19,849 nt of DNA, from the NCBI GenBank assembly GCA_945787295.1, contig CALZHQ010000033.1, forward strand, positions 38,531 to 58,379, given 5' to 3'. Positions 3,873 to 19,468 of this stretch are shown one piece after another. The notes under the pieces were generated by a model. The model was not told where the DNA came from. It did not search any database and saw only the letters and a list, made by a program, of their open reading frames with translations. The DNA is from an uncultured Desulfuromonadales bacterium (GTDB taxonomy: Bacteria > Desulfobacterota > Desulfuromonadia > Desulfuromonadales > Geopsychrobacteraceae). The position numbers and the translations under genes are program-made. The stretch's first letter is position 1; each line of letters opens with the position of its first letter.

Positions 3873-3887
3873 GCAATGGCAGTGCCA
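3873..3887 (-). promoter_or_regulatory. Sigma-54 promoter (-24/-12) of the mftA operon
   Basis: Reading the minus strand, the element is TGGCAC-TGCCA-TTGC, which matches the sigma-54 consensus TGGCAC-N5-TTGC in both blocks with the correct spacing. Transcription would begin near 3861, giving a leader of about 55 bases before mftA. Sigma-54 promoters need an ATP-hydrolysing enhancer-binding protein; candidate enhancer dyads lie at 3960-3976 and 4015-4031. Confidence 0.85.
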
Positions 3888-3959
3888 GAACAAAACAATG
3901 GTTTACCACTGGATATTAAGCAGTTAGACTGGTCGAAAAAACACCTACAGGTGAGACAG

Positions 3960-3976
3960 TGTGGAGATATTGGACA
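3960..3976. promoter_or_regulatory. Enhancer-type dyad a (mft operon)
   Basis: TGTGGAGATATTGGACA, an imperfect inverted repeat TGTGGA-N5-TGGACA. On the minus strand it is followed by CTG, as other copies are. It lies about 75-90 bp upstream of the sigma-54 element of mftA. It is nearly identical to the copy at 19383-19399 (TGTAGAGATATTGGACA). Confidence 0.65.
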
Positions 3977-4014
3977 CATATGTGACTTTCAGCACGACTG
4001 CACACCCTGGCCAC

Positions 4015-4031
4015 TGTAGATAATTTCTACA
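4015..4031. promoter_or_regulatory. Enhancer-type dyad b (mft operon)
   Basis: TGTAGATAATTTCTACA, a dyad with perfect 6-bp arms (TGTAGA/TCTACA) and a 5-bp centre. It lies about 130 bp upstream of the mftA sigma-54 element, within the usual range for binding of a sigma-54 activator. Confidence 0.7.
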
Positions 4032-4159
4032 ATGAGCATTTAATCCACAAACAGAAATAGAACTATGGTTGTCGTAGTGGGAATTTTTTCTACAAACAGG
4101 AATATAAATCGCAAATAAATTCCAATGACTGTTTTTATCACCAAATAAACAGGTTTTTT

Positions 4160-4672
4160 ATGATGCAAATAAATTCCCACTGTTCTTACTGTGGACGCAG
4201 GTTCCCAGCAGCGACACCCTGGCCGAGAATCTGCCCAGGCTGCGGAAACACCAGCTACCTGAATCCGTTACCGGTCGTGGTTGTGCTGCTACCGATCGGC
4301 AAAGGGTTACTTGTCATCCGCAGGAATATTGAACCCCAAAAAGGCACCTTGACCCTTCCGGGTGGCTATTTGGATTTAGGCGAGACCTGGCAGCAAGGCG
4401 CAAGCCGGGAGTTGGAAGAAGAAACCGGCATCGCTGTCGCGGCAGAACAGATCAAGCTGCACGATGTTCAGAACGGACTGGATGACACCCTGGTCATTTT
4501 TGGCTTGGCGAGTACACAGTCAGCGGATTGTTTCAAGCCTTTTTCTTCTGCTGAAACCCAGGAGGTTGTTCTGATTGAGAAACCGATAGAGTTGGGTTTC
4601 CCGATGCATACCGAAGTCGTTAGGAGATTTTTTACCGACGCCAAAGACAGCCCACAGCGATTGAAGAGCTAA
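4160..4672 (+). CDS. NUDIX hydrolase with N-terminal zinc ribbon
   Basis: A 170-aa protein. The N-terminus has two Cys pairs (C8, C11 and C25, C28: CSYCG...CPGCG) typical of the zinc-ribbon NUDIX group. The NUDIX box follows as G-x5-E-x7-REL-EEETGI (from GYLDLGE to EETGI, about residues 72-95), with all metal-binding Glu residues present. Such enzymes hydrolyse nucleoside diphosphates linked to another group; the substrate here cannot be read from sequence. The ORF begins with two ATGs, and the ribosome site is poor. A decayed second copy of its 3' half lies at 7038-7289. Confidence 0.88.
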   Translation: MMQINSHCSYCGRRFPAATPWPRICPGCGNTSYLNPLPVVVVLLPIGKGLLVIRRNIEPQKGTLTLPGGYLDLGETWQQGASRELEEETGIAVAAEQIKLHDVQNGLDDTLVIFGLASTQSADCFKPFSSAETQEVVLIEKPIELGFPMHTEVVRRFFTDAKDSPQRLKS

Positions 4673-4754
4673 CTTGAGACTGCAGTGAGAAATTTGCGTT
4701 TCCACGCGAATCACGAGGATAAGACCGAACGCATTATCGGACGACAGAAAAAAA

Positions 4755-5603
4755 TCACCCTGAAGTCTTTTGTCCAGTTAGGATCACTAGCGCAATGCCA
4801 CTGAGGATTGTTATCGAAGCCAAGAGAAGGCGTACGGTTATAGGTTCCCCCAGGAATACGATGCCCCCCAAGGCCGCAATCACAGGAACGCTGAGCTGGA
4901 CCGTTGATGCGTTGGTGGATTTTAAAGCAGGTAATGCCGCGTACCAGATGGCATAGCCGATTCCGGAAGCCAGTGCGCCAGAGGTAACAGCGTAGCAAAG
5001 TCCGGCATTATCCAGAGATGCATTGCTCAGCGTTAAGGCACTAAACACAACTGCGATTGGAACCGCGCGCAGGAAATTCCCCGTCGTTACCCCGATAGGG
5101 TCGCCCGTACCCTTCCCGCGCAAAGAATAGATGCCCCAGGCAAATCCAGCAACCAACATCAATACGGACCCTGGCAGCGGTGGTGTCAAGAGACCTGGCA
5201 GCAGCAGACTGACAAGGCCTCCGCAAGCGATCACAAAACCGACCAGCTGCAGGCGTTGAAGACGCTCTCCCATCCAAACGGCAGAGCCGATCATTGTTGT
5301 CTGAACAGCGCCGAACAGCAGCAGCGCTCCGGTTGCCGCAGGCAGGCTCACATAAGCAAAAGAAAAACCGGCTGCATAGACAAATAACGCAAATGCCGAT
5401 ACCCAGTTGCCTCTGCCAGTCTTGGTATCTCGCCGCAGATGCAGCATCAACCAAAGCATCAGCGCTCCAGAGATCACTCGAATCGTAGTAAAACTAAATG
5501 GGTCGATACTGGTATGCTTGAGCGCTGCCCGGCAAAGCAGTGAATTACCAGCAAATGCGACCATGGCTAGCGCCGTCAGGACAATTATGCGTGCATATGC
5601 CAT
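4755..5603 (-). CDS. DMT-superfamily (EamA) transporter
   Basis: A 282-aa membrane protein with about ten hydrophobic segments arranged as two EamA repeats. The first repeat opens with ALAMVAFAGNSLLCRAAL, and the second ends with GGIVFLGEPITVRLLLASITILSGIALVIL, a pattern close to the typical LGE...GAxLI ending of EamA permeases. These export or exchange small metabolites across the inner membrane; the substrate cannot be told. It converges with the NUDIX gene. The ATG at 5603 has a GAGAAG ribosome site about 5 bases upstream. Confidence 0.88.
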   Translation of the reverse strand: MAYARIIVLTALAMVAFAGNSLLCRAALKHTSIDPFSFTTIRVISGALMLWLMLHLRRDTKTGRGNWVSAFALFVYAAGFSFAYVSLPAATGALLLFGAVQTTMIGSAVWMGERLQRLQLVGFVIACGGLVSLLLPGLLTPPLPGSVLMLVAGFAWGIYSLRGKGTGDPIGVTTGNFLRAVPIAVVFSALTLSNASLDNAGLCYAVTSGALASGIGYAIWYAALPALKSTNASTVQLSVPVIAALGGIVFLGEPITVRLLLASITILSGIALVILTGQKTSG

Positions 5604-6076
5604 TGTCTTCTCTTTATCATGCAGCAGGCACCAAGCTGTTGCCCAGCCGCTGAGATAGCGGGTGGGTTGAATCGTTTCCTCTAATTCTTATCCTCTAAAT
5701 TAGAAGAACCTCGTAATCCATTCGCCAGGATCGCTCTGTGTTTACTCAATCTTGTCTTTCCGAGCCGTTAGCTTAGATGCTTTTCCGGTAGATTGGCAGC
5801 GTTAACGTAATCAGTAGTCAGGTTCCAGCTGAATCAGTCCGACCCTCTTTCCTTAAACGTATCTTGAAACAGTCAAAATCTTCGACGAGATCGTCTGTTC
5901 TTGTCAGCTTAACCCCAGTATCGATCAACGCAAGTCCCCAACCGCATCTAATATACAACTTATAACGCATGCACGCTTGCGCAACATCTTTGAGGGTGTA
6001 TAGTTTAGACTATTAATGGTATTAATTATCTCAAGAGGGATAGCGCACTCTGTCTGCTGCTCAATAAGGAGGGCAA
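5604..6076. other. Long intergenic region with little recognisable content
   Basis: About 470 bp of AT-rich sequence between the divergent EamA gene and the next plus-strand unit. It contains a 7-bp inverted repeat with an 11-bp spacer at 5680-5704 (TCTAATT...AATTAGA), which could be an operator for the EamA gene. It also holds a short minus-strand reading frame at 5818-5970 that may be a gene relic. I see no RNA gene or mobile element in it. Confidence 0.4.
5818..5970 (-). pseudogene. Possible relic of a coding region (50 codons)
   Basis: A 50-codon frame reads MRYKLYIRCGWGLALIDTG and onward to KIRLRKEG. The GWGLALID stretch is reminiscent of the ATP-binding part of RsbW/GHKL-type kinases, but the frame is too short and lacks a ribosome site. 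I regard it as either a remnant or chance. Confidence 0.2.
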
Positions 6077-6250
6077 ACGAATCTCTTAAAGAACAGTCTG
6101 AAATCTGTCACAACGGGGCGCCAGATCACCCAATCATCAAGGGATGGCGGTGCAAATCAGGATCTGGATGATCTTCTTCTGATTGATGTTGATGAAAATA
6201 AGACGTCCCCCGTTGACGAGTCTGTAATAAATGCTGCGGCAAGACACTGA
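6077..6250 (+). CDS. Possible small protein of unknown function with ACG start
   Basis: A 57-residue frame begins at ACG, 5 bases after a very strong ribosome site, AAGGAGG (6066-6072). It reads TNLLKNSLKSVTTGRQ at the start and contains an acidic DLDDLLLIDVDENK segment. No ATG, GTG or TTG fits the spacing. ACG is either a very rare start or a mutated ATG, which would make this a silenced gene. A shift of frame near 6240 would continue into DFEQRIQDLNVHPVSQDVLINVLKLKEEV in the frame that opens at 6231, which also looks coding-like. I do not recognise the product. Confidence 0.3.
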   Translation, partial: TNLLKNSLKSVTTGRQITQSSRDGGANQDLDDLLLIDVDENKTSPVDESVINAAARH

Positions 6251-6339
6251 TTTTGAACAGAGAATCCAAGACTTGAACGTCCATCCAGTGAGTCAGGACG
6301 TGTTAATAAATGTTTTAAAACTGAAGGAGGAGGTCTGTC

Positions 6340-6705
6340 ATGCAAGAATTAAAACCTGTATCAGTCCGCATGCTTGGTACCCTGCACAGATTGAGAAAAG
6401 AAAAGGGCTTGCAACCATATCTCGAAATCACCCTCGCTACATCTGGCCGAAAAGCATCCGATATTGCAATGGATCTGAATTTACCGTTAAACGTGATCGG
6501 TTCCATTTACTGCAATCATATCCCCGCTGATATCTACCATATGGTCCACCCAGGAGACCGGATAGCCTTTGTCCCCAAGAGCGTTCCAGGCCCTCACCAA
6601 AGATATCAAGGTTTCCCATGGATTAAAGAAGCTGTCATGCCTGTAGCAGGAGAAGAAGCAATGATTACACCACTGGTGGCAGCCACAAGCACCTCCATGG
6701 CCTGA
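6340..6705 (+). CDS. MoaD/ThiS-like ubiquitin-fold protein
   Basis: A 121-aa product whose first 85 residues fit the beta-grasp ubiquitin-like fold of MoaD/ThiS/Mut7-C-type proteins: VSVRMLGTLHRLR, a central ASDIAMDLNLPLNVIGSIYCNHIPAD, then MVHPGDRIAFVPKSVPGPH. MoaD and ThiS carry sulfur as a C-terminal Gly-Gly thiocarboxylate. That Gly-Gly is absent here; the segment instead ends in a PGPH motif followed by a tail of about 30 residues of odd composition. A sulfur-carrier role is therefore unproven. The ATG is well supported by AAGGAGGAGG ending 6 bases upstream. A terminator follows at 6775-6806. From about 6662 a different frame also reads as plausible protein (GGSHKHLHGLTEQLMKMAE), so the true 3' end may be shifted. 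Confidence 0.6.
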   Translation: MQELKPVSVRMLGTLHRLRKEKGLQPYLEITLATSGRKASDIAMDLNLPLNVIGSIYCNHIPADIYHMVHPGDRIAFVPKSVPGPHQRYQGFPWIKEAVMPVAGEEAMITPLVAATSTSMA

Positions 6706-7037
6706 CCGAACAGCTTATGAAAATGGCTGAAATCAAATCCACCCCCCACCTGCAGCCAGAAAATACTTTTAGATAACCACCTTCACAAAAATGAGGGTGG
6801 TTTTTTAAGCGATCCAGCGCGCCTTAGGTAACCGATGCTTTTTTCATGCTCCGCTTATCAAACCCTACCTCTCATCATTAACCAATCGGCAGAAACACCT
6901 TGAACTGAAATCTTTCATAGCGTCTAAGCGCACTGCAAGTCAGCATTTAACCATTCCCCACCATCTTTTCTGGCAAAGAACGACTCCCAGATGTGTCCAA
7001 GGATATTCGGCGGCCTGCCGTGACCGGTTTCAAAGAG
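6706..7037. other. Intergenic region after the MoaD-like gene
   Basis: About 330 bp with no supported gene apart from a possible out-of-frame extension to about 6774. It contains the terminator at 6775-6806. The rest is unremarkable AT-rich sequence leading into the NUDIX relic. Confidence 0.5.
6775..6806 (+). terminator. Rho-independent terminator
   Basis: Stem AACCACC/GGTGGTT with a 14-base loop, followed by a run of T, downstream of the MoaD-like gene on the plus strand. Confidence 0.85.
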
Positions 7038-7289
7038 TTAGGCGAGACTCGGCAACAAGGCGGCTCGAGCGGGAAGAAAATTCCGACAGCGCAGTAGCGG
7101 CGCAACAGATCAGCCTGTACGATGTTTAGTACGGACGGGATACGGTGTCATAATTATCGGCTTGACGAGGTGGCAGTCAGCGGACCGTTTCAGTCCTTTT
7201 TCTTCCGCAAAAACCCAGGAGGCTGTACAGATTGAGAAACCGGCAGAATTGGGTTCTCCGTTGTCTACAGACGGGGTCTTTAGAAAGCA
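7038..7289 (+). pseudogene. Decayed copy of the 3' part of the NUDIX gene
   Basis: This segment aligns along its length with 4376-4630 of the intact NUDIX gene, beginning at TTAGGCGAGAC, through GATGTT(C/T)AG, to CAGGAGG and ATTGAGAAACCG. It has lost the reading frame near 7068-7085 through a deletion and has an internal TAG near 7120. Its last 44 codons are open and run straight into the MFS gene: QSADRFSPFSSAKTQEAV against QSADCFKPFSSAETQEVV in the parent. It is a remnant of an old tandem duplication. Confidence 0.85.
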
Positions 7290-7293
7290 TGAA

Positions 7294-8484
7294 ATGAAAC
7301 CTCTCCATTCCAACATCAAGAAACTTTACCTCTTCTCTTTCCTGCAGATGAGCCTGTTCCCGATGGCTATCATCACGCTCTTCTGGAAAGATCAGATCGG
7401 CCTGAGCCTGACCGAAATCCTTCTTCTGCAAGGTATTTTTTCTATCGCCATGGTGATCATGGAGTATCCGTCCGGCTACCTGAGTGATCGGATCGGTTAT
7501 CGAGCTGCATTGAATTTTGCCTCCTTGCTCGGCATCATAGGCTGGGGACTATATTCCTTCGCCGATTCTTTCACTCAAGTCCTGATTGCCGAAATCATCC
7601 TGGGCATTTCAATCTCTTTTATCAGCGGTTCGGACAGCGCACTGCTTTATGAAAGCCTGAAATCCGAAGGGCAGGAACAATTATATTCCCGCCATGAAGG
7701 TCGGATGAATGGATTTGGTCAAACCGGCGAAGCGTTTGGAGCCATTTTTGCCGGACTCCTTTACGCGGCGGCACCGCTGCTGCCCTTTCTGATCCAGGCA
7801 GCCATCTGGGTGCTGGCCCTGCTCCTGACCCGCACCCTGATCGAGCCAGAGCGGAAACTCAAACCGCCGACCAGTCATCTTGCCGAGGCCTGGAGGTCAA
7901 CCAGATACGCACTGCTAGAAAACAAGCGCCTGCGCTACACCATCCTTTTAAACCTGGTGCTTGGAATGGCTTCCTTCTATCCAGTCTGGTTGATTCAACC
8001 CTACATGCAGGACGGCGGCGTTCCGCTCGCCTGGTTCGGGCCGATCTGGGCGGGCGCCAACCTGAGTGTCGCCCTGTTTGCCCTGGCCAGCCACCGCAGT
8101 CATCTAAAGTTAGGCGACCGGCGCATGGTGCTGCTGTTCATTCTGTTGATCATCTCAGGCTACCTGGGGCTCGGGCTGCTCGGTGGACTCTGGGGCTTCC
8201 TGTTCTACTACTTTTTGACCAGCATGCGCGGCCTGCGCGGCCCGATGTTGCTAAACCATGCCCAGCAGGAGATACCCTCTGCCAATCGGGCCGGAATTCT
8301 TTCGTTGCAATCGCTCTGTTTCCGGTTCAGTTTCGTCTGCACCGGCCCACTGATCGGGTTACTGGCCGACACCCTGGGAGTTCAGCAGACGTTTATGTTG
8401 CTCTGTTATGTGTTTGCCGTGGTTTTGCCTCCGGTGGCTTGGTTGTTCCTTAAGCAGCAGCACAATCCCCCTCCCAAGCAATAG
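7294..8484 (+). CDS. Major facilitator superfamily transporter
   Basis: A 396-aa membrane protein with about twelve hydrophobic segments. The loop between helices 2 and 3 carries the MFS motif A, GYLSDRIGYRAAL, and helix 4-5 has GSDSALLYESL, a pattern of drug- or metabolite-efflux MFS proteins. Substrate unknown. The open frame extends upstream to a TTG at 7162, but the extra 44 residues are the relic of the NUDIX duplicate. I place the start at ATG 7294, just before MKPLHSNIKKLYLFSF. Its ribosome site is weak (AGAAAG), so a different promoter or start may have been captured after the duplication. Confidence 0.85.
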   Translation: MKPLHSNIKKLYLFSFLQMSLFPMAIITLFWKDQIGLSLTEILLLQGIFSIAMVIMEYPSGYLSDRIGYRAALNFASLLGIIGWGLYSFADSFTQVLIAEIILGISISFISGSDSALLYESLKSEGQEQLYSRHEGRMNGFGQTGEAFGAIFAGLLYAAAPLLPFLIQAAIWVLALLLTRTLIEPERKLKPPTSHLAEAWRSTRYALLENKRLRYTILLNLVLGMASFYPVWLIQPYMQDGGVPLAWFGPIWAGANLSVALFALASHRSHLKLGDRRMVLLFILLIISGYLGLGLLGGLWGFLFYYFLTSMRGLRGPMLLNHAQQEIPSANRAGILSLQSLCFRFSFVCTGPLIGLLADTLGVQQTFMLLCYVFAVVLPPVAWLFLKQQHNPPPKQ

Positions 8485-8702
8485 GATTAATGTCTTTTGC
8501 CGGGTGACTTAAAAAATGACATATCCTTGCCATATTCACACATTTACTATCAATGAAGCTGCCACAGACTGTTTTCGGATTTATCACCTAGCCTTTGGAG
8601 CGCTAATTGCATTTATTTATCACTGACGATCATGCCTCTGCAGCGCATATCTGCCGATAATTTTAAATATCAATCCAATAAATCTTCGGAGGTCATCAGC
8701 AA

Positions 8703-9584
8703 ATGAAACGAATAACTGTCCTGTTCATCTTAAGTGTCGTTTTTCTTTCCGCATGTGCCAGCAGCAAATGGGTTCGTCAACCGGTCGTCCAACAACATGA
8801 ATTTGTCGTCAGTCTAGAACAGCACCAGGAAAATGGAGGTACCGTTCAGCAAAAATATCAGCATCCGTATAAGTTAGATTTAGCTGTTTTAGAAAAGCTG
8901 CTGGGAGATTTGACCTACAGCGAAACATTCGGGCTGATGAACGAAAAGAGAAAGAGTCCGGTCTTCCAGACGGTTGAAATTCACCGGCTGGCACCCGTTC
9001 TAGCAAAGACACTGTCCAAAGCCGATCCCGGTCAACGGATCCGTTTTGCCTCCTTTAACAATGAAGAGGCCTTGATATTTTCGATCAGCCGTAAAACAGA
9101 AGGGGTCATATTTATTGAGCCCAATGGACAGTTAAATATAGCATTTAATTTTATCAATTCCGACCGCCATGCGGGCGAAACCTCTGCCTTTCAATACAAC
9201 TATTCCACTAGCGATCCATTAAAAATAAAAACTTCGGATACTCCCATATCAGCTACCGCCCCTTATATCGTATTGCACAAGTTTGAAACCGGCAAAATAG
9301 CCCCAATGTGGGTAGAGGCAGATCTCGACAGGCTGAAAGAATCCGCCAACACTGAGACTAATTCTACCGTCAGGACAATTGAAGAAATTCCCCCGGCAGT
9401 CGCACCAAAGACAAAAGACCTCGACACGCCAGTAGAGAAAACGGCGCCACCCCAAGCATCTGGAGATGTGCTTGAAGACATCAAGAACAAACTTAAATAT
9501 TTAAAAGAGCTGCTGAACGAAGGGCTTATCTCCGAGAAAGACTATAATGCGAAAAAAATGGAACTCCTGGACAAAATCAATTAG
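8703..9584 (+). CDS. SHOCT-domain lipoprotein of unknown function
   Basis: A 293-aa protein with a lipoprotein signal peptide: MKRITVLFILSVVFLSAC, lipobox LSAC, modified Cys18 followed by Ala-Ser, which favours the outer membrane. The central part (about 30-215) is a mixed alpha/beta region that I do not recognise. A Pro/Thr-rich linker follows (about 220-255). The last 35 residues, DIKNKLKYLKELLNEGLIS and onward, form a SHOCT domain, a short C-terminal helical module seen in many bacterial proteins and thought to support oligomerisation. GGAGG lies 10 bases before the ATG. It stands alone, with a small hairpin after it. Confidence 0.82.
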   Translation: MKRITVLFILSVVFLSACASSKWVRQPVVQQHEFVVSLEQHQENGGTVQQKYQHPYKLDLAVLEKLLGDLTYSETFGLMNEKRKSPVFQTVEIHRLAPVLAKTLSKADPGQRIRFASFNNEEALIFSISRKTEGVIFIEPNGQLNIAFNFINSDRHAGETSAFQYNYSTSDPLKIKTSDTPISATAPYIVLHKFETGKIAPMWVEADLDRLKESANTETNSTVRTIEEIPPAVAPKTKDLDTPVEKTAPPQASGDVLEDIKNKLKYLKELLNEGLISEKDYNAKKMELLDKIN

Positions 9585-9639
9585 CCCTTGTCTTCGCGCA
9601 GGGTAGTTGAAATATTTTTACGGTTTTATAACCAATAAA

Positions 9640-9660: not shown

Positions 9661-9666
9661 CATTTA

Positions 9667-11062: not shown

Positions 11063-13009
11063 TCATCCGGGAGAAATTGGTAGCAATACGGTAAATTGCG
11101 ATCCTTCTCCCTCGCGGCTGGTCAGATTAATATCTCCACCATGCCGTTTGACAATATCATAGGTCAGGGCTAAACCGAGCCCGACACCTTGCCCCACCTC
11201 TTTGGTGGTAAAAAACGGCTCCCAGATCCGCTCGACCAGTTTCTTATCGATTCCACAGCCATTATCCCGAATCACAAGAGAAACCATTAAATCTTCAGCC
11301 TGATCGGTTATGACTTTTACACACCCATTTTCCTCGATCGACTGGTAGGCATTGATCAGCAGATTCATGCAGACCTGGCGCAGGCTGGAAGGGTCGCCGT
11401 GAATCCGTGGCAGGTTCGGTTTCAGGTCTGTACTAACTTCGACCTGTTTGTAACTCGAATGATAATGGAGCAGTTCAAGGATTTCCCGCACAATCAGATT
11501 CAGGTCAACTTTTATGGGGATTCCGTCTGATTTACGGCCGAAACTGAGCAGATGGTCGATGATCCCTTTGCAGCGGTAGGACTCACTGATGATCATCTCC
11601 AGGTAGCGAGGAAAAACATCCAAACGACTATCTTCTTGCAAGCCGGCTTCATCCCGAAAGCGGCGCTGCAACGCCTCGGCAAACCCCGCCACCGAGGTCA
11701 GAGGATTGTTTATTTCATGCGCAATCCCGGTTGCCAGCACACCGATACTCGACATTTTCTCCGCCTGAATCAGATGCATTTCTTGGTGTCGTTTTTCAGA
11801 AACATCGCGAAAGAAAACCAGCGCCCGGTTTTTTTCGCCCAGCGCGTCACGAATCGGCGTTGCTGTGACATCCAGATATCGGGTGCCCTGATCTCCTATT
11901 TCCCACGTCAATGAGGTGTCCATCCGCTCCCCCTTTAATGCCCGTTCCACAGGGCAATCCTGCGGAAGAGACTGCTGCCCCGGATGAAAGATCTCCTGGC
12001 AAGATTTGCCATGCAGAGCGGACTGGGAGAAAAACTGTGAGCCGATACTATTTCGATGCTGAACGTTCCCTTCTTGGTCATAGACCATGATGCTGTCACT
12101 GATCGAATCGAAGATCGCCTGCAGTTCGTTGGTTTTGTTCTGCAACGCAGCTTCGGCCTGCTTTCTCGAGGTTATATCCTGTGTGGTTCCGTAAAGACGG
12201 ATGACCTTGCCGGCGCTATTGACCATCGGTTCAACGATCGAATAAACCCATCGTTCGGTGCCATCGGGAAACAGCAGCCGATGTTCGATCTCATAGTTTC
12301 TGCCATGATCGATACCAAGACTCAGATGGTACATCACCCGGTCAACGTCCTCCGGGTGGACCACGCGGGCAAATGCTTCATGGGTGGTGTCTTCTGATCG
12401 CAGGTGCAGAATACGCAGCAGTTCAGCTGAAGCCTTGACATTCCCGGTGTCCGGGTCGAAGCTCCAGGAACCAACATGGGTCATTTCCTGGGCTTTGGCC
12501 AGGTTATATTCACTCTCTGCCAAAGCCTGTTCAGCACGTTTTTTCTCGGTTATGTCGACCAGAACTGCCAGGCATTCCTGCCCGGCATTGGTCATTTTAG
12601 CCTCAATCCGTACATAGAGAGCTTCCTGGTCAGGTTTTGCGAGGCGCAGCCGACACGTCTGTTTTTCCTGACTTGTAAATACCGTCTGCAGAAAACCGGT
12701 AAAGACAAAGCAGTCTTCTGCGGCAACAAATCGTTCAAACATCTCATTGACGAGTCGGGAGTTAGGCTCACCGAGCAACTTTTCCCCCGACAAATTGACT
12801 GATTTGATCACTCCGGCATGATCAATGGTGAAGTATCCAACCGGAGCAAAATCGTAAAGAAAAGCGTAGACATTCCGAGATCTCTCCAGCTCTTCCTGGG
12901 ATTTCCGCAGTTCCTCAATTTTGCACTGCAGCTCGAACTGGCTGGCCTGAGATTCTGATAGCTTTTTCAAGGCACCCCTCTCTACTTTACCTAGTGCTGT
13001 CTCGACCAT
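11063..13009 (-). CDS. PAS-domain histidine kinase, NtrB-like, cytoplasmic
   Basis: A 648-aa kinase without membrane segments. An N-terminal coiled coil (about 20-45) precedes three PAS domains: about 50-155, 170-285 (ending in a PAC segment LYGTTQDITSRKQ) and 295-408. Then come HisKA with the H-box GIAHEINNPLTS (His431) and a HATPase domain with N, G1 and G2 boxes (NLLINAYQS, DNGCGID, GVGLGLAL). The H-box and FFTTK segment resemble NtrB-type kinases, which often partner sigma-54 activators. No response regulator lies next to it. The frame is open to a TTG at 13045, but I prefer the ATG at 13009, 8 bases after the stop of the upstream small gene. A TTG at 12970 behind GAGAGGGG is a third option. 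Confidence 0.85.
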   Translation of the reverse strand: MVETALGKVERGALKKLSESQASQFELQCKIEELRKSQEELERSRNVYAFLYDFAPVGYFTIDHAGVIKSVNLSGEKLLGEPNSRLVNEMFERFVAAEDCFVFTGFLQTVFTSQEKQTCRLRLAKPDQEALYVRIEAKMTNAGQECLAVLVDITEKKRAEQALAESEYNLAKAQEMTHVGSWSFDPDTGNVKASAELLRILHLRSEDTTHEAFARVVHPEDVDRVMYHLSLGIDHGRNYEIEHRLLFPDGTERWVYSIVEPMVNSAGKVIRLYGTTQDITSRKQAEAALQNKTNELQAIFDSISDSIMVYDQEGNVQHRNSIGSQFFSQSALHGKSCQEIFHPGQQSLPQDCPVERALKGERMDTSLTWEIGDQGTRYLDVTATPIRDALGEKNRALVFFRDVSEKRHQEMHLIQAEKMSSIGVLATGIAHEINNPLTSVAGFAEALQRRFRDEAGLQEDSRLDVFPRYLEMIISESYRCKGIIDHLLSFGRKSDGIPIKVDLNLIVREILELLHYHSSYKQVEVSTDLKPNLPRIHGDPSSLRQVCMNLLINAYQSIEENGCVKVITDQAEDLMVSLVIRDNGCGIDKKLVERIWEPFFTTKEVGQGVGLGLALTYDIVKRHGGDINLTSREGEGSQFTVLLPISPG

Positions 13010-13017
13010 GGTACTGG

Positions 13018-13212
13018 TCAGGTTCCTGCAAAACTGGTCGCACAAATGTTTTTCAAACTATTCGCCTTGGCACCACAATGCTTACACTCTACAACCGGCC
13101 GGTCAGAAAGGTACTTAATGCTTTCAGCTCGTTGTTGGGCAATCAGAGTACACATATGTTTATGAACGTCACTGCTGTCGCAGATACAACTTTCGTAACC
13201 ACCAGTAATCAT
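13018..13212 (-). CDS. Small zinc-ribbon-like protein (copy 2)
   Basis: A 64-aa protein with HM-C (H19, C21) and VECKHCGAKANSLKNIC (C43, C46, C57), a probable zinc or iron site. It is paralogous to the protein at 13879-14130: both share SDRP-V-ECKHCGAKANS-KNIC. The ATG at 13212 is supported by AGGTGG 8 bases upstream; a GTG at 13224 is in frame but less well placed. The two copies flank the thiol peroxidase gene. Its function is unknown; the conserved Cys set and the neighbour suggest a redox or metal role (inference). Confidence 0.8.
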   Translation of the reverse strand: MITGGYESCICDSSDVHKHMCTLIAQQRAESIKYLSDRPVVECKHCGAKANSLKNICATSFAGT

Positions 13213-13878: not shown

Positions 13879-14130
13879 CTATTCGGTTTTTCTGGACCCG
13901 GCATGCGGTTTGCCGATCTCATCAAGACCGACAATGCCGTGGCCACCTTCAATATTGGGTGCAGCAGCACCCAAATGAGCAGCGCAGATATTCTTGATGC
14001 TATTCGCTTTGGCACCACAATGTTTGCATTCGACCAAAGGCCGATCAGACAGAAGTTCTATGCAATCGGTCTTCCCCCGCAATTTGAGTGCGCACATATG
14101 GTTGGAATGATCTTTACTGTCACACGGCAT
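13879..14130 (-). CDS. Small zinc-ribbon-like protein (copy 1)
   Basis: An 83-aa protein with HM-C (H11, C13) and VECKHCGAKANSIKNIC (C35, C38, C49), like its paralogue at 13018-13212, plus a 34-residue Gly/His-containing C-terminal tail that the other lacks. AAAGGA lies 6 bases before the ATG. It sits 33 bp after the CoxE-like gene and about 105 bp before tpx, so it may be transcribed with both. Metal binding is likely; function unknown. Confidence 0.8.
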   Translation of the reverse strand: MPCDSKDHSNHMCALKLRGKTDCIELLSDRPLVECKHCGAKANSIKNICAAHLGAAAPNIEGGHGIVGLDEIGKPHAGSRKTE

Positions 14131-14163
14131 TGGAAATCCTTTCAGATGAAGTGATTATGATTT

Positions 14164-15555
14164 TTACCAGTGACTGCGGGCGTCTGGATCGAGAGCCGGT
14201 GTCACTGCGCCAGCGCCACGGGTGTAGTAATCGCGGTAATCGTGATCCTGTTCTTCCTCAACCTTTGCGATCGAGCGTTTGGAGCGATGTTCGTCCTCCA
14301 GGTAGATATTACGGAACAGGTCTTCGACAATCAGGTTTAACTCTTCGACACTTTTGACCACATCGACCTTGTCACAATAGGCGCCATAGGTCTCCATCAG
14401 ACAGTCACCCCGTTTCCACAGCGAGCGGTCTTCCGGAGTCAACCAGAGCATATAACCAGCTTTCTCGCGCAGTTGCTCGAGCACCCAAGCGTTGGCTTTA
14501 TTATAATTGTTACGTGCATCACCAAGAAAAATCACCGCCGGTTTGCCGCGCAGGTTTTCCAGGAACTTTTCTTTGAACGCCAGGAACACCTTGCCGTAAT
14601 CACTGTTTTCATCCAGATCGACAATCTTGCCACTGTCGATATTCTCCAACATGGCATTGATCGGGGTATTGTTGAGCATTTCGGTAATTTCTGCCAGCTC
14701 CGCGTTAAAGATGAAACTGCGGACATCCATCATCCGGTTGTGCAGAGTATGCAGCAACAGCAGCATGAATTGGGCGGCATGGCTGACCGAAAAACTGACA
14801 TCACAGAGCACCACCAGACGTGGCTTCTGTTTGCGCTTGCGGCGCAGGGCCAGCAGAAAAGGAACCATGCCGTTACGGTAATTTTTCTGGATGGTGCGGA
14901 CGACGTGAATTTTGCCGCGATTTTCCATGTTTTTAACCCGCCGAACATCTTTTTTCAGGCGGAGCAGCATTCGCGCGACGGCATCTTCCATCTCGTCGAC
15001 TTCCTGCTGGGTAAAGGTCATGTCGCGCTGTTGACCGCTCGGCTGCTTAAAAGCCATGGTGATAGGATTCTGCGGCATCCGCATCGATGGTCTGGACGCA
15101 TCCAGTGAGCCGCGATAGCCCTTCATTCGCACCTGGATCTCAGAACCGTCAAGTTGGTCAAAATCGATTTCTCTAAGTTGTGAAAGATCCTTGATGTCTT
15201 CAGGATTCAGACCAGCATCAACGCCCGCCAATGACATTTTATTATTGACCATTTCGGGGTTGGTGCCGAGCATCTGCTCCCCTTCCATGCCACTGATTGC
15301 TTCGTGCAGCAAATCTTCGGGAGCAACGCCCATGCCTTCTGGATAATTCCTGAAAAAGCGTGCGAAGACCTCATCAAAAACGGGAATATCGTGGACTTTC
15401 TTCACCAGCGTCAAGCGTAATAGTGCGTGCACCGAGTCACGCCCGCCAAGTCCGCCATGAGCCAGGGCACAGACGGCATCTAGGCTCTCCCCCGGAGAGA
15501 CTCGGAGCCCTTCCCGTCTCAGGTCAGCCACAAATCTGGTGATGATTCGTTCCAC
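14164..15555 (-). CDS. CoxE-like VWA-domain protein
   Basis: A 463-aa protein. The C-terminal half is a von Willebrand A domain of the CoxE type, with MIDAS motif CDVSFS (D252, S254, S256) after a basic segment RRKRKQKPRLVVL. The N-terminal half is helical with Met-rich stretches. MoxR ATPases and their VWA partners act as chaperones that insert metals or mature cofactors; in carbon monoxide dehydrogenase clusters CoxD and CoxE mature the active site. The start is GTG at 15555, only 2 bases after the MoxR stop (TGA-tc-GTG), so the pair is coupled. The nearest enzyme upstream is the iron alcohol dehydrogenase, a possible client (inference). Confidence 0.85.
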   Translation of the reverse strand: MERIITRFVADLRREGLRVSPGESLDAVCALAHGGLGGRDSVHALLRLTLVKKVHDIPVFDEVFARFFRNYPEGMGVAPEDLLHEAISGMEGEQMLGTNPEMVNNKMSLAGVDAGLNPEDIKDLSQLREIDFDQLDGSEIQVRMKGYRGSLDASRPSMRMPQNPITMAFKQPSGQQRDMTFTQQEVDEMEDAVARMLLRLKKDVRRVKNMENRGKIHVVRTIQKNYRNGMVPFLLALRRKRKQKPRLVVLCDVSFSVSHAAQFMLLLLHTLHNRMMDVRSFIFNAELAEITEMLNNTPINAMLENIDSGKIVDLDENSDYGKVFLAFKEKFLENLRGKPAVIFLGDARNNYNKANAWVLEQLREKAGYMLWLTPEDRSLWKRGDCLMETYGAYCDKVDVVKSVEELNLIVEDLFRNIYLEDEHRSKRSIAKVEEEQDHDYRDYYTRGAGAVTPALDPDARSHW

Positions 15556-15557
15556 GA

Positions 15558-16460
15558 TCAGCTCAATTCTTCAGCAGCCAGTTCCGCCACTTTTCCTAAA
15601 TCGGCCTGGTGCTTGGAAATCACCCCGACAGTGTTGGCAACCACATCCGGAGTCAGTTTACTGATATGCAGAATCGATAACACCTCGGCCCAATCGAGGG
15701 TTTCTGAAACGCTGGGCGGTTTGCGCAGATTGAGTTCACGCGCCTTGCGCAAAAAGCCGACCATCTGGTGAGCCAGTTCGTCACAAACATCAGGAAAACG
15801 GGCGCGAACGATCTGCACTTCACGTTCTTCCTCCGGGTAATCGATATACAGATAAAGACAGCGCCGCCGGAGGGCGTCGGATATCATCCGGGTACCGTTA
15901 CTGGTAAGGATCGCTAACGGTTTTTGTTTCGCTTCGATCACTCCCAGTTCCGGAATCGACACTTGAAAATCACTCAGACATTCCAGCAACAAGGCTTCAA
16001 ACTCATCATCGGAACGGTCGATCTCATCGATCAGCAAAACCGAACGTTTTTCTGAAAGAAAGCTGCGCAGGATCGGCCGTTGGACCAAAAAATTCTGCGA
16101 GAAAAACATACTTTCTTCGTTAGCCAACTGCTCAACAGCATCGCGCAGGTCGACAGTGCCGCAAAGATGATTATCGAGCTGGGTCCGCAGCATCTGGGTG
16201 TAAAGTAGCTGCTTGCCATATTCCCAATCATAAAGAGCTTTGCCTTCGTCGATCCCCTCGTAACATTGCAGGCGTACAAGAGGGAAATCCATAACCTCGG
16301 AAAGAGTCTTCGCGAGACCAGTCTTGCCGACCCCGGGCGGCCCTTCTATCAGTATCGGTTTCTCCATGCGCAGAGCGAGAAAAACCGCCGTAGCGATAGC
16401 TTCATCTGCAATATAGCCTCCAGAGCGGAGCAGTTCACTAACGTCTTGTTCGGTCATCAT
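15558..16460 (-). CDS. MoxR-family AAA+ ATPase (CoxD-like)
   Basis: A 300-aa AAA+ protein with Walker A GPPGVGKT (40-47), Walker B VLLIDEIDRS (about 140-149), sensor 1 LTSNGTR and the arginine region SDALRRRCLYLYIDYP typical of MoxR proteins. It works with the VWA protein encoded directly downstream. The frame opens at a TTG (16466); ATG codons at 16460 and 16457 are better placed behind AAGAGG. I use 16460. Confidence 0.88.
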   Translation of the reverse strand: MMTEQDVSELLRSGGYIADEAIATAVFLALRMEKPILIEGPPGVGKTGLAKTLSEVMDFPLVRLQCYEGIDEGKALYDWEYGKQLLYTQMLRTQLDNHLCGTVDLRDAVEQLANEESMFFSQNFLVQRPILRSFLSEKRSVLLIDEIDRSDDEFEALLLECLSDFQVSIPELGVIEAKQKPLAILTSNGTRMISDALRRRCLYLYIDYPEEEREVQIVRARFPDVCDELAHQMVGFLRKARELNLRKPPSVSETLDWAEVLSILHISKLTPDVVANTVGVISKHQADLGKVAELAAEELS

Positions 16461-16516
16461 GATCAACCTCTTGCTGTAGGTATCGGATATATTTTTCTAT
16501 TCTACTACAAATGAAA

Positions 16517-16560
16517 GAGCCGCTGACACCAGGAGGGGAATCCCCAGGGGCCAACGGCTC
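16517..16560 (-). terminator. Hairpin after the alcohol dehydrogenase gene
   Basis: Outer stem GAGCCG/CGGCTC and an inner perfect GGGGAATCCCC palindrome. On the minus strand it is followed by TTTCATTTG, a weak T-run. It lies 36 bases after the Fe-ADH stop and before moxR, so it is a probable terminator or attenuator between them. Confidence 0.6.
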
Positions 16561-16595
16561 CTCACCTCAGCTTAGAACGTCTGTTTCAGCATGAA

Positions 16596-17741
16596 TTACA
16601 TGCAGCCCTTGAAAACGGAGCGCATGTTTTCAAAGCCGATATCGACCGGATTTCCTTCGGAGCAGATATCAGCTGCTGCGAAGCCCAGGTCGTCCTTCAG
16701 CTCCTGGATCATGTCGATGAACATTTCACCAGCCTTCATATCGGAAATACCGTCGGTATTGATTCCGGCGGCACGAGCCATCATGGCGAAGCGCTCAGGG
16801 CAGGCCGGCAGGTTGAGACGACAGACATCGACCATGGCGATGGCGTTACACAGGCCGTGCGGAGAATCATAGAGGCCGCCCATGGCGTGTGCCATACTGT
16901 GGACGATCCCGAGACCGGCGCTGTTGAAGCTGTAAGCTGCGGCCATTTCAGCCCAGACCATTTGCTCAATCGCTTTATCGTTGTTCCGGTTGCTCGCCGA
17001 CTGGCGCAGGTTAGCAAAAATCTCGGAAATCGCCCAGAGGCCCGGACCGTAGGCGGACTGGACACAGAGCCGTGAGGCGATTGCTTCAACCCCATGGGCC
17101 AGAGCGTCCATGCCAGTGTAAGCAGCCAAGTCGCCAGGCATGCACTGATGAAGCAACGGATCATTGACCGCTTTACTTGGGGTGCAGTTCGGATCAAACA
17201 GAGCCATTTTGTACATTTTCTCGGTGTGATTGATGATCGAGAAGCAGGAAACTTCGGAGCCGGTCCCGGAGGTGGTATTGATTGCCAGGTGCGGAATTTT
17301 GTTCGGCTTGGTCGCTTTAAAAGCGCCTTCAAAGGAGCGGACATCCTGACCATCGTGAGCGTGGACCAGCTTGATCGCTTTACAGCAGTCCGTAGTACTA
17401 CCGCCACCGATGCTGATCAGGCCATCAAACTTGCCTGCGGACAGCATCTTGGCGCCTTCCATAACCTCGAAATCTTTCGGGTTCGGAGTCCCCTTGGCAA
17501 ACACTTCAGTCTCGACGCCGGCATGCTTGAGAACGCCCTGAATGGTCTCGATGATACCAGTCCCTCTGAGGCCGGTGGTGACAATCATCGCCCGGGTCAT
17601 ACCCAGAGCTTTGGCATCGTTACCAACCATGGTATGGGCACCCCAGCCGATATTTACCGACGGGTAAGCGTGCTGCATTTTGATCGGATACTCTTGTCTT
17701 TCACCGTTGAGGGTCCGTTTTGCATCTTTAAAATGGGGCAT
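16596..17741 (-). CDS. Iron-containing alcohol dehydrogenase
   Basis: A 381-aa group III (iron-dependent) alcohol dehydrogenase. It has the cofactor motif GGGSTTDCCKA (112-122), TTSGTGSEVS (156-165), and metal ligands D212, H216 (GMDALAH), H281 (IVHSMAH) and H295 (SPHGLCNA). It is close in type to methanol/ethanol dehydrogenases of this family, some of which in other bacteria depend on mycofactocin and keep their nicotinamide bound. A very good ribosome site, AAAGGAGG, precedes the ATG. A sigma-54 promoter and an enhancer dyad shared with the mft operon lie upstream. I infer that it is a mycofactocin-linked alcohol dehydrogenase; substrate not known. Confidence 0.9.
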   Translation of the reverse strand: MPHFKDAKRTLNGERQEYPIKMQHAYPSVNIGWGAHTMVGNDAKALGMTRAMIVTTGLRGTGIIETIQGVLKHAGVETEVFAKGTPNPKDFEVMEGAKMLSAGKFDGLISIGGGSTTDCCKAIKLVHAHDGQDVRSFEGAFKATKPNKIPHLAINTTSGTGSEVSCFSIINHTEKMYKMALFDPNCTPSKAVNDPLLHQCMPGDLAAYTGMDALAHGVEAIASRLCVQSAYGPGLWAISEIFANLRQSASNRNNDKAIEQMVWAEMAAAYSFNSAGLGIVHSMAHAMGGLYDSPHGLCNAIAMVDVCRLNLPACPERFAMMARAAGINTDGISDMKAGEMFIDMIQELKDDLGFAAADICSEGNPVDIGFENMRSVFKGCM

Positions 17742-17935
17742 GGTGTTTCCTCCTTTTAGGGATTTGTACTCATACTATCGGTTAGTTTTGAGTACGTGAT
17801 AATTGTCTTACCAGCGGGAACCGAGCTGCCCTTGAGACTGGCAATAACCTTGTTTTACCCGATCCACCAAACATCAACTGATTGGTCTGAACTCTGTGTC
17901 ACCAAGGCTCATCGACAATCTGGTAAATTGATATA

Positions 17936-17950
17936 GCAAAGCCAATGCCA
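17936..17950 (-). promoter_or_regulatory. Sigma-54 promoter of the alcohol dehydrogenase gene
   Basis: On the minus strand TGGCAT-TGGCT-TTGC, one mismatch in the -24 block and an exact -12 block with correct spacing. Transcription would start near 17925. Confidence 0.8.
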
Positions 17951-18080
17951 ATTAAAAACATCGTTCTAAATTAAGCATTTACCAGCTTCCAGAAGGAATT
18001 TCGGGGAAATTCACATTAAGTGGCTGGGGAGGAAAGAAACACATTCCCAGAGAAAGGCTGAACCAACCGGACCCATAGAC

Positions 18081-18097
18081 TATGGAGATTATCTACA
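18081..18097. promoter_or_regulatory. Enhancer-type dyad d (alcohol dehydrogenase)
   Basis: TATGGAGATTATCTACA followed by CTGGGG. It matches the shared dyad in the right arm and 5 of 6 bases of the left arm (TATGGA against TGTGGA), and lies about 131-147 bp upstream of the sigma-54 element. The CTGGGG extension is the same as at 19438-19454. Confidence 0.6.
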
Positions 18098-18176
18098 CTG
18101 GGGAATTTTGCATCGAAAGAGGCGTGGGAGAAACGGCAGAGAGCAGTGAAAAAATCAACCGCAGGATAATAATCGA

Positions 18177-19274
18177 TCAGTTTTTATTGTTCCAGCGCAT
18201 CACCGTATGCCTTTGCTGGCAACGATCTTCCGCAACCAGAAAATCGCCAAAGCTCCCCCAGGCACGCCCCATACAGCCACCGGCGCAACTCTGAAGAAAT
18301 GCGCATTCCCGACATTCAGGGATTGCTGCCACCCGCTGACGACTGACCTGCTGCAGCGACGACCAGAGCGAAATCCCCTCAATCAGCGCGGCGGGAAGGC
18401 CTGTTGCAAAGACCCCTGCAACGGAGTACTGATCGGCATGGCATAGCAAACACGGGTAAAGAACTCCCTTTGCGGTCAAGTAGGGGGTTCTGATGAAACG
18501 GCACCCAGTCCCGGAACTTTTCGTGCCACACCACTCCAACGCTGCAATACAACCGAATTTTGCGTACAGCTGCTGAAATTTTTGGTCTTCAGCGTAGCGC
18601 TGCAGCAAAGCTGGATACTGTTCAGGATCAGGCGGAGCAATGACATCCTCCTCCCCTGCCCGACCGCAAACAACCAGCGAACCGCTGGTTATTGAACCGA
18701 TACCGAGCTGTTCGGCCAGCAGGAACAGATCTGGCAGTTCCTGGAGGTTATGTCGCATCTCGGTAAAGAACAGCGAGACATTCGCACCAAAACCATGCTC
18801 GACCAGAGAGCGAACGCCTTTCAGCGCCTGCTGAAAAGTCCCCGCGCCACGTACCAGATCATGCGTTGCGGCTTTGGCGCCATCGAAGCTGATCTGAATA
18901 TTCAAATCTGCCAGCCTGAGTTCGCGCAATGCCTGCAGATCTTCATCGTCAAACAGCATACCATTGGTCTGCAATAAAACCTGTAAGCCGGCAGCTCCAG
19001 CCAACCTCATCAGCTCGAGCCAGTCGGGGTGCAACAATGGCTCTCCTCCGGTTAATCTGATTGCTGAACCGCCGAGCGCAGCAAAATCGTCAATCACCCT
19101 TTGCACATCCTGCTTCGGTACCCATGAAACCGAAGAATCAGGCCCGGAATCAACCCAGCAATGCGCGCAACGCAGATTGCACTCTCCGGTAATGGCGATG
19201 GTCAGCAGCTCGGGCAGAATTAAGCCTTCATGCCTAAACTGCTTTTCAATTTCATTTTTTTTCATATGCCTCAT
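18177..19274 (-). CDS. Radical SAM/SPASM protein, probable cofactor or peptide maturase
   Basis: A 365-aa radical SAM enzyme with CNLRCAHC (C32, C36, C39), the SAM-binding GGEPLL segment, QTNGML, and QISFDG. A C-terminal SPASM-type region has Cys motifs CGTKSSGTGC, YPCLLC and CRECAFLQSCAGGC for extra clusters. It is not a second MftC: it lacks the LTWE and SGRG signatures and the overall match is low. The neighbouring MOSC gene raises the chance of a role in molybdenum or tungsten enzyme maturation; the shared enhancer dyads instead link it to the mycofactocin operon. The ATG at 19274 has AAGGA 9 bases upstream. No precursor peptide was found next to it. Confidence 0.85.
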   Translation of the reverse strand: MRHMKKNEIEKQFRHEGLILPELLTIAITGECNLRCAHCWVDSGPDSSVSWVPKQDVQRVIDDFAALGGSAIRLTGGEPLLHPDWLELMRLAGAAGLQVLLQTNGMLFDDEDLQALRELRLADLNIQISFDGAKAATHDLVRGAGTFQQALKGVRSLVEHGFGANVSLFFTEMRHNLQELPDLFLLAEQLGIGSITSGSLVVCGRAGEEDVIAPPDPEQYPALLQRYAEDQKFQQLYAKFGCIAALEWCGTKSSGTGCRFIRTPYLTAKGVLYPCLLCHADQYSVAGVFATGLPAALIEGISLWSSLQQVSRQRVAAIPECRECAFLQSCAGGCMGRAWGSFGDFLVAEDRCQQRHTVMRWNNKN

Positions 19275-19308
19275 CACTGCTATTCCTTAAGGCAGCATGG
19301 TAACAAAT

Positions 19309-19323
19309 GCGACCTGAATGCCG
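19309..19323 (-). promoter_or_regulatory. Probable sigma-54 promoter of the second radical SAM gene
   Basis: On the minus strand CGGCAT-TCAGG-TCGC. The invariant GG and GC are kept with correct spacing, but the match is weaker than at the other two promoters. Transcription would start near 19297, about 23 bases before the ATG. Two good enhancer dyads upstream raise confidence. Confidence 0.55.
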
Positions 19324-19357
19324 GGCAACAGCCGCAAATCACTAACCAACAAGCGCG

Positions 19358-19389
19358 CTCTACAGTTTTTACAGATAGGAACTGTAGAG
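19358..19389. repeat. Inverted repeat CTCTACAG ... CTGTAGAG
   Basis: Perfect 8-bp arms separated by 16 bases. The right arm is the left half of dyad e and the left arm adds a further TCTACA half-site, so this may extend the activator binding region. Confidence 0.5.
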
Positions 19390-19399
19390 ATATTGGACA
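19383..19399. promoter_or_regulatory. Enhancer-type dyad e (second radical SAM gene)
   Basis: TGTAGAGATATTGGACA, differing at one base from the copy upstream of mftA at 3960-3976. It lies about 60-76 bp upstream of the sigma-54-like element. Confidence 0.65.
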
Positions 19400-19423
19400 A
19401 CAATTCAGTTCTTGCGGAAAAAC

Positions 19424-19468
19424 GCGAAACGCCCCGATGTAGACAATTTCCACACTGGGGCGTTTCGC
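19424..19468 (-). terminator. Terminator of the MOSC gene with an operator in its loop
   Basis: Perfect 12-bp arms GCGAAACGCCCC and GGGGCGTTTCGC around a 21-base loop. On the minus strand GTTTTT follows, which gives a classic rho-independent terminator 73 bases after the MOSC stop. The loop contains dyad f. Confidence 0.75.
19438..19454. promoter_or_regulatory. Enhancer-type dyad f (second radical SAM gene)
   Basis: TGTAGACAATTTCCACA followed by CTGGGG, a near-perfect copy of the shared dyad, about 115-131 bp upstream of the sigma-54-like element and inside the loop of the terminator hairpin. Confidence 0.65.

Follow-up and report, generated by a model that had tools for sequence, protein, structure and literature searches.

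The mycofactocin (mft) genes and an iron-containing alcohol dehydrogenase (ADH) of an uncultured Desulfuromonadales bacterium are very probably co-induced by one two-component activator of the AtoC/NtrC type, acting through TG-N13-CA dyads and sigma-54 promoters. This reading comes from comparative sequence analysis of a 19,849-nucleotide stretch (GenBank assembly GCA_945787295.1, contig CALZHQ010000033.1, positions 38,531 to 58,379; hereafter the window). Its minus strand carries mftA-mftB-mftC, the beginning of an etf gene and a gene for an oxidoreductase of the OYE family. Some 13 kb from these, also on the minus strand, a unit encodes ADH together with a MadB-like AAA ATPase and a MadC/CoxE-like VWA protein; past it come rSAM2, which encodes a second radical SAM protein, and the end of a MOSC gene. 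The eight best MftC matches are 89-93% identical to the window protein, and one of them is labelled by its source as coming from a Desulfuromonadales bacterium. A preliminary description of the window had suggested that one enhancer-binding protein controls mycofactocin synthesis together with its client dehydrogenase, a suggestion now supported by conserved sites, spacing, promoters, synteny and the co-occurrence of a regulator with mft genes. The kind of system, a sigma-54 two-component regulon, is already known; what is new is its target and a fixed three-dyad enhancer.

The preliminary description had placed five copies of one dyad, and one -24/-12 element per unit, upstream of mftA, ADH and rSAM2. 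All five dyads, and the three -24/-12-like elements as well, are present where it had put them. The added dyads at 4033-4049 and 19456-19472 each stand 18 bp from the next dyad, so that mftA and rSAM2 share an A-18-B-55-C array, while the ADH array in the window consists of B and a degenerate A. The strict dyad TGTAGA-N5-TCTACA (up to three mismatches) was counted 8 times in the window against 4.76 expected, a number reached in 19 of 200 shuffles, and the sigma-54 pattern (up to two mismatches) was at background (11 against 12.3 expected), the rSAM2 element not being in the list. The degenerate dyad TGTMSA-N5-TCYACA, a consensus derived from the very sites counted, gave 19 matches (palindromes counted on both strands) against 6.5 expected and was equalled in none of 200 shuffles. 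Since the counts of the strict dyad and of the -24/-12 pattern were near chance, window statistics alone were rejected as evidence and comparative data were used; the mftA and ADH elements are convincing only because they are conserved across species. Of the three sigma-54 units first proposed, those of mftA (perfect match) and ADH (one mismatch) thus held, whereas the rSAM2 element is weak and mostly unconserved. A dyad matrix built from 45 mftA promoters, and so trained on sites that it also scores, gave only four places scoring at least 11 in the window outside the mftA upstream region, all of them rSAM2 or ADH sites. By this matrix the earlier statement that no full copies lie inside genes is correct, whereas a looser letter count gives one 11/12 match (2149-2165) inside the OYE gene.

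For the comparison, 71 MftC loci were gathered, with an alignment of 35 MftC proteins; plasmid records matching MftC (457, all below 60% identity) were not used. Eight loci in which the MftC match or start was cut (L054, L060, L066-L071) were left out, six more had no readable mftA start, and mftA was placed in 57 of the 63 loci with an MftC start, which together with the window makes 58 rows. The sigma-54 score (maximum 21) was our own weighting of the familiar consensus, which is also printed in the available text of PMC2725144. A match of 20 or 21, of the TGGCAY-N5-TTGC type, was found 72-105 bp before mftA in 45 of the 58 rows (the window and 44 relatives), placing the mftA promoter in the TGGCAY-N5-TTGCW class. 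Without this being imposed, the dyad offsets from the -24 box fell into three narrow bins, at 88-94, 143-149 and 161-167 bp. Dyads B and C exceeded 7 bits in all 45 rows and A in 41, and the B-C spacing was always 54-56 bp (55, 56 and 54 bp in 37, 6 and 2 rows, respectively). The spacing tabulation imposed the 18 bp between A and B; the evidence for this figure is therefore the offset bins and the exact pairs seen. The averaged site is TG-N13-CA with an almost purely A/T centre, as would fit a dimer with a Fis-type helix-turn-helix (HTH) domain. Because the mftA rows are homologous to one another, come from related genomes and served to train the matrix, one might suppose that spacing and sequence reflect recent common descent of one intergenic region devoid of function. 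We regard this as very improbable: the sites and the 54-56 bp spacing persist while MftC identity falls to about 70%, and a model trained on mftA only finds the same sites before unrelated genes (ADH, aldehyde ferredoxin oxidoreductase (AOR), ErcA-like and porin genes).

The ADH unit has a predicted sigma-54 promoter of its own. TGGCAY-N5-TTGC[TA] was found 196-241 bp before the start in each of the 21 distinct ADH orthologs, that of the window among them, whose upstream stretch was long enough; these loci, mostly picked around enhancer, mftC or regulator matches, are not a random sample, and none was picked for a sigma-54 element. A dyad stood 135-148 bp before the -24 box in seven of eight relatives scored, and a second one at 162-166 bp in five of the eight; a ninth row (L022), mis-placed by the script, was ignored. 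The locus with no dyad (L024) ends at that point, and a longer stretch from the same genome (L148) has a dyad at 147 bp. The ADH leader is about 190 nt long (window 17742-17934), and an AAC-N3-GTT block followed by GGAGGTG is common to the leaders of many of 20 orthologs. A riboswitch in this leader was considered and dropped, as no Rfam match was obtained in four sources and no convincing consensus structure emerged. The window ADH is also shorter by about 20 in-frame residues near its C-terminus than those of L008, L065 and L002, a difference that could stem from a natural deletion or from faulty assembly.

To follow the enhancer genome-wide, a sequence-only model of dyads A and B, in which the sigma-54 element has no part, was built from 41 mftA sites, L036 (cut upstream) and L011, L019 and L065 (poor A) having been dropped from the 45. 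Its E-values are rough, the scan of 42 genomes used stricter filters, and counts are among the matches listed, so that weaker members may be missed. In these 42 genomes, 20 non-mftA places had E ≤ 0.005, of which 16 lay within 20 kb of mftC or of the regulator gene described below; ADH, AOR, rSAM2 and regulator-operon sites were all recovered although training was on mftA only. Of the other four, two lay on short contigs, one at an ADH promoter (L133) and one at a gene taken from its first residues to be AOR-like (L218); the third precedes a tungstate operon (genome G005), and the fourth lies inside an open reading frame (ORF). Further off-locus matches (L132, L135, L136, L140, L141, L145, L151, L214, L217) were discarded because they lay inside ORFs, were without a promoter or had no dyad by the matrix. 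In 29 held-out genomes, which had contributed no training sites, matches at E ≤ 0.01 were obtained in 9 of 10 genomes with the regulator and in 0 of 19 without it; at E ≤ 0.1 the figures were 9 of 10 and 3 of 19. The 19 were taken in listing order from 96 genomes with neither mftC nor the regulator, and two mft genomes, G050 (with the regulator) and G118, stood outside the test. In G083, a single contig of 5,136,364 bases, four of the five distinct matches at E ≤ 0.1 fell within 17.4 kb, at mftA, ADH, rSAM2 and a divergent ErcA-like/porin region. The preliminary description had advised testing the dyad for enrichment upstream of sigma-54 elements, and had held that a background frequency genome-wide would speak against its reading. 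In the relatives the array precedes the conserved elements of mftA (45/58) and ADH (21/21), the genome-wide matches cluster at the mft/ADH/regulator locus, and the held-out genomes separate by presence of the regulator, which is not the pattern of a background frequency.

The candidate activator was found next to the sites. In L002 the ADH unit, and in L040 rSAM2, has a gene for a response regulator of the AtoC/NtrC type just upstream. The L002 protein (1392-2750) has receiver, sigma-54 AAA+ and Fis-type HTH domains (PF00072, PF00158 and PF02954, all above cut-offs), as expected of the NtrC/AtoC type. Against the AtoC model NF008469 the score is 402.5 bits, below the cut-off of 714; a regular expression found GAFT[GS]A in 29 of 33 orthologs. 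One ortholog of at least 66% identity was present in 38 of 42 mft genomes, the next paralog reaching at most 46% among the matches listed, and G022 has a fragment (73%) at a contig end. A motif search for regulators near mft genes had returned L037, L040, L046 and L062; only L040 is a true ortholog (70% identical to the L002 gene, itself missed by that search), and the other three, 37-39% identical, were dropped. A histidine kinase gene lies directly upstream of the regulator in all 30 neighbourhoods read, and in 29 of them the regulator gene is followed by one for MOSC, rSAM2, ADH or a weakly matching radical SAM protein, the last being MoaA in one case (L144, TIGR02666 above cut-off). Dyads scoring at least 12 occurred within the approximately 4.3 kb read in 22 of the 30 neighbourhoods; the search for an NtrC-type regulator near other sites, which the preliminary description had advised, was thus successful.

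Presence of the regulator goes with presence of mycofactocin genes. Among 141 genomes of the order, 36 had both mftC and the regulator, 3 mftC only, 6 the regulator only and 96 neither (Fisher p 8.5e-24, not corrected for phylogeny). Two of the regulator-only genomes, G095 and G107, have an mftA-type array at a contig end, in G095 with mftA itself, so the absence of mftC there is probably an assembly gap. In five longer stretches (L142, L144, L147, L149, L213) a gene for an ErcA-like iron-containing alcohol dehydrogenase precedes the kinase gene. Two such proteins scored 409.8 and 414.7 bits against the ErcA model NF041833, below its cut-off of 550. In the four rows read, dyads and a sigma-54 score of at least 19 were found upstream of the ErcA-like gene in every case, so the ErcA-like/kinase/regulator operon looks self-activated. 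The kinase next to the regulator is 50-61% identical over about 370 residues, in 24 labelled loci, to an orphan three-PAS kinase of the window, which is a candidate second input to the regulator.

The sigma-54 promoters might be real and the dyads nevertheless be bound by another protein, whether a different Fis-type activator or a repressor, with the neighbouring regulator merely syntenic. Sigma-54 activators are numerous in every genome (9-25 matches at E ≤ 1e-80), the rSAM2 dyads without a -24/-12 element hint at more than one mode of action of the binding protein, and in two genomes (L137, L139) single dyads stand beside a different sigma-54 activator (39-40% identity). Yet the model matches track the regulator through the held-out genomes, and the dyads recur, with the promoter, before the regulator's own operon; we therefore consider another binding protein improbable.

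Several observations weigh against control of all these genes by this one activator. No sigma-54 activator domain was found in the 18 window proteins scanned against Pfam. No ortholog of the regulator was found in three of the 42 mft genomes searched (G001, G016, G026), which are perhaps incomplete. Three of the 19 regulator-less genomes have a model match at E 0.011-0.072, and G106 has the regulator and no match at E ≤ 0.1. Thirteen of the 58 mftA rows lack the promoter, including L047, titled Desulfuromonadales; the others bear the titles Deltaproteobacteria (L048-L050), Anaeromyxobacter, Desulfobacteraceae, Desulfatitalea, Dehalococcoid/Chloroflexi and Spirochaetes, and one of them (L055, Desulfobacteraceae) is a near miss, with a score of 19.5 at -83. 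Dyad A is poor (below 7 bits) in four of the 45 promoter-bearing rows. The putative link between regulator and dyads is itself drawn from co-occurrence and position. Finally, a sigma-54 score of at least 19.5 was found upstream of rSAM2 in one of 22 rows (L133), and in several relatives the order of the rSAM2 dyads is reversed to C-B-A, or they stand no more than 60 bp from the start.

These last two features fit an alternative limited to rSAM2, which can hold together with the main explanation: the sigma-54 units would be mftA, ADH, AOR and the regulator operon, and rSAM2 would be expressed by read-through from the regulator or from a sigma-70 promoter, its dyads repressing it or serving another gene. 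We give this alternative an even chance. Against it, the array before rSAM2 in the window has the mftA geometry, its -24/-12-like sequence keeps GG and GC in spite of three mismatches, and G083 (L213), seen apart from the 22 rows, has a perfect element. Since dyads were found within 420 bp upstream of rSAM2 in 18 of the 22 rows, its link to the DNA-binding protein of mftA and ADH is well supported by sequence, whereas its sigma-54 control is doubtful. In two Anaeromyxobacter-like loci (L050, L051) a relative of rSAM2 lies between mftF and the AAA-VWA genes, which suggests a role for it in the mycofactocin/ADH system.

We propose the following model for the single activator. Its gene is predicted to lie just past the right end of the window, beyond MOSC and probably moaA. 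The protein, with its receiver, sigma-54 AAA+ and Fis-type HTH domains, would be phosphorylated by the two related kinases and would bind the TG-N13-CA dyads. At mftA, the loading of three dimers on the fixed A-18-B-55-C array, some 90 bp before the -24 box, would suffice for one AAA+ hexamer, and this would remodel RNA polymerase-sigma-54 at the promoter; at the same distance the ADH unit would make use of dyads A and B. The activator may also serve its own ErcA-like/kinase/regulator operon, a porin gene, AOR where this gene has a separate promoter and, less certainly, rSAM2. Alcohol, the presumed signal, would thus induce cofactor, alcohol dehydrogenase and aldehyde-oxidising enzymes jointly: mycofactocin would serve as carrier in the oxidation of the alcohol to the aldehyde, which would be taken on to the acid by a tungsten enzyme, whose pterin moaA may supply. 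A similar arrangement exists for NorR at norVW, where three dyads, three dimers and one AAA+ hexamer stand upstream of one sigma-54 promoter, as proposed here. NorR differs in having a nitric-oxide-sensing GAF domain in place of the receiver and in the sequence and spacing of its dyads.

A more speculative extension, which we hold to be rather unlikely, is that the ErcA-like dehydrogenase acts as the alcohol sensor, using mycofactocin or reading its redox state, so that mycofactocin would be made when a dehydrogenase linked to it signals alcohol and the two-component system would become a cofactor-feedback switch. If true, such a switch would induce the cofactor and its client enzyme together with pterin cofactor genes, a porin and the tungsten-dependent oxidation of aldehydes, and in at least one lineage also the uptake of tungstate. 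In Pseudomonas aeruginosa, ErcA is likewise an iron-containing ADH-like protein encoded with a histidine kinase, ErcS, in an alcohol-oxidation regulon; unlike the system described here, that pathway ends in non-sigma-54 regulators.

Further predicted members of the regulon were found with the same signature. AOR has its own dyads in L004, L005, L010, L142, L146 and L218, with the element TGGCATCTGCATTGCA before it in L004, L005, L146 and L218, and in many Geobacter-type loci AOR closely follows mftF in the mft cluster. The porin gene has a sigma-54 score of 21 in three of five rows, one of the proteins being only 29% identical. In G005 a tungstate operon (molbindin-tupA) has two dyads and a sigma-54-like element upstream (L134 2001-2037, 2302-3727). 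It was rejected as a general member, since of the 22 genomes with a TupA match (24 searched, flanks of about 1.5 kb) only G005 has dyads and element. The dismissal is not a clean one, since a lone dyad stands in the same position, some 330 bp before tupA, in each of L166, L167 and L170 (near 1168), with no strong -24/-12 element beside it; TupA is thus possibly a lineage-dependent member. Downstream of tupA in G010 (L160/L179; L160 2382-2519), a sigma-54-like element with a dyad 91 bp before it may mark a further unit. Other observations touch these genes. In G002 (L146 2253-4420) the AOR-type enhancer and promoter occur twice, split by a gene that by eye looks transposase-like and by one copy of a duplicated small gene resembling a methyltransferase. 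In G032 a pair of dyads with 18-bp spacing (L219 2010-2044), some 6 kb away from mftA, lies close to genes that on inspection by eye resemble those for a molybdenum aldehyde oxidoreductase and an aldehyde dehydrogenase.

The features of the window are collected in Table 1. With MftA, MftB and MftC all above curated cut-offs, the cluster is one for mycofactocin biosynthesis, and in relatives the MftF glycosyltransferase gene lies downstream (TIGR03965 376.9 bits, cut-off 280, in L004). The window ADH scores 297.5 bits against TIGR04266 (NDMA-dependent methanol dehydrogenase), below the cut-off of 625, and rSAM2 reached no NCBIfam cut-off among the best 25 of 76 families. No TetR-family regulator, as in MftR-type control, was found near mftA among the 18 proteins scanned. 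The divergent neighbour of mftA is a nudix gene; the C-terminal end of the nudix protein recurs in diverged form at the start of an ORF leading into an MFS transporter (window 4160-4672 and 7162-7290), as if by duplication or insertion of a segment between the two. A small protein (6340-6705) with no Pfam match ends like the protein at L220 1520-1831, both having a PGPH stretch, and the latter lies just before AOR-type dyads; from its resemblance we take the window protein to be possibly a ThiS/MoaD-like partner of AOR.

Table 1. Genes and putative regulatory sites of the window (positions in the window; scores with curated cut-offs where available).
Feature	Sequence	Position	Strand	Remarks
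OYE-family oxidoreductase 2, mycofactocin system		386..2347	-	TIGR03997 959 bits, cut-off 793
mftC, radical SAM maturase		2405..3448	-	TIGR03962 359.9 bits, above cut-off 265 (scan used longer N-terminus)
mftB, chaperone		3438..3686	-	TIGR03967 61.7 bits, above cut-off 33
mftA, mycofactocin precursor, 39 aa		3688..3807	-	TIGR03969 43.5 bits, above cut-off 25
-24/-12 element of mftA	TGGCACTGCCATTGCA	3872..3887	-	perfect match
Dyad C, mftA enhancer	TGTCCAATATCTCCACA	3960..3976	-	
Dyad B, mftA enhancer	TGTAGAAATTATCTACA	4015..4031	-	
Dyad A, mftA enhancer	TGTGGATTAAATGCTCA	4033..4049	-	missed by the preliminary description
Three-PAS histidine kinase		11063..13045	-	HisKA, HATPase_c, PAS; without adjoining response regulator
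MadC/CoxE-like VWA protein of ADH unit		14164..15555	-	PF05762; NF047783 163 bits, below cut-off 600
MadB-like AAA ATPase of ADH unit		15558..16466	-	NF047784 305.5 bits, below cut-off 475
Iron-containing alcohol dehydrogenase (ADH)		16596..17741	-	PF00465; likely mycofactocin client
-24/-12 element of ADH unit	TGGCATTGGCTTTGCT	17935..17950	-	one mismatch to TGGCAC-N5-TTGCW
Dyad B, ADH enhancer	TGTAGATAATCTCCATA	18081..18097	-	147 bp before -24 element
Dyad A (degenerate), ADH enhancer	CGATGCAAAATTCCCCA	18099..18115	-	missed by the preliminary description
rSAM2		18177..19277	-	PF04055; probable start 19265 (MKKNEIEK)
Weak -24/-12-like sequence before rSAM2	CGGCATTCAGGTCGCA	19308..19323	-	three mismatches; function doubtful
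Dyad C before rSAM2	TGTCCAATATCTCTACA	19383..19399	-	
Dyad B before rSAM2	TGTGGAAATTGTCTACA	19438..19454	-	
Dyad A before rSAM2	TGTTGCGAAACGCCCCA	19456..19472	-	missed by the preliminary description

In Mycolicibacterium smegmatis, MftR is a TetR-family repressor with a 27-bp operator that responds to long-chain acyl-CoA (PMC8728441, available text). The two systems share a palindromic operator upstream of mftA controlling the mft cluster; here the predicted regulator, in place of a TetR repressor, is a sigma-54 activator that has a receiver domain and acts on an enhancer of three dyads. DVU2394 of Desulfovibrio vulgaris offers another likeness, being described in the available text of PMC3333781 as a response regulator for an alcohol dehydrogenase operon, likewise in a former deltaproteobacterium. 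Haft (2011) linked iron-containing ADH genes to mycofactocin in Geobacter and predicted the same enzyme family to be mycofactocin-dependent (PMC3023750); the word promoter is absent from the main text of that paper, to which promoter, enhancer and activator are added here. A paper on Geobacter sulfurreducens RpoN lists an alcohol dehydrogenase among genes with predicted promoters (PMC2725144), and neither its available text nor that of a 2025 sigma-54 survey (PMC12316311) mentions mycofactocin. A supposed link of Gmet_1046 to a regulator proved wrong, the literature, in the text available, calling it an ethanol dehydrogenase. The preliminary description knew of no sigma-54 control of mycofactocin genes, and among the open-access papers searched, which leave other literature uncovered, none joins mycofactocin with sigma-54 or rpoN, or with aldehyde ferredoxin oxidoreductase.

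In the literature examined, the known control of mft genes is thus a TetR repressor in mycobacteria. A regulon that ties the cofactor to an iron-containing alcohol dehydrogenase, a tungsten aldehyde oxidoreductase and pterin genes would suggest what mycofactocin is for in metal-reducing bacteria. The finding also names a candidate regulator and a DNA signature with which further client enzymes may be found, and the role of mycofactocin outside actinobacteria becomes directly testable in cultured relatives of Geobacter.

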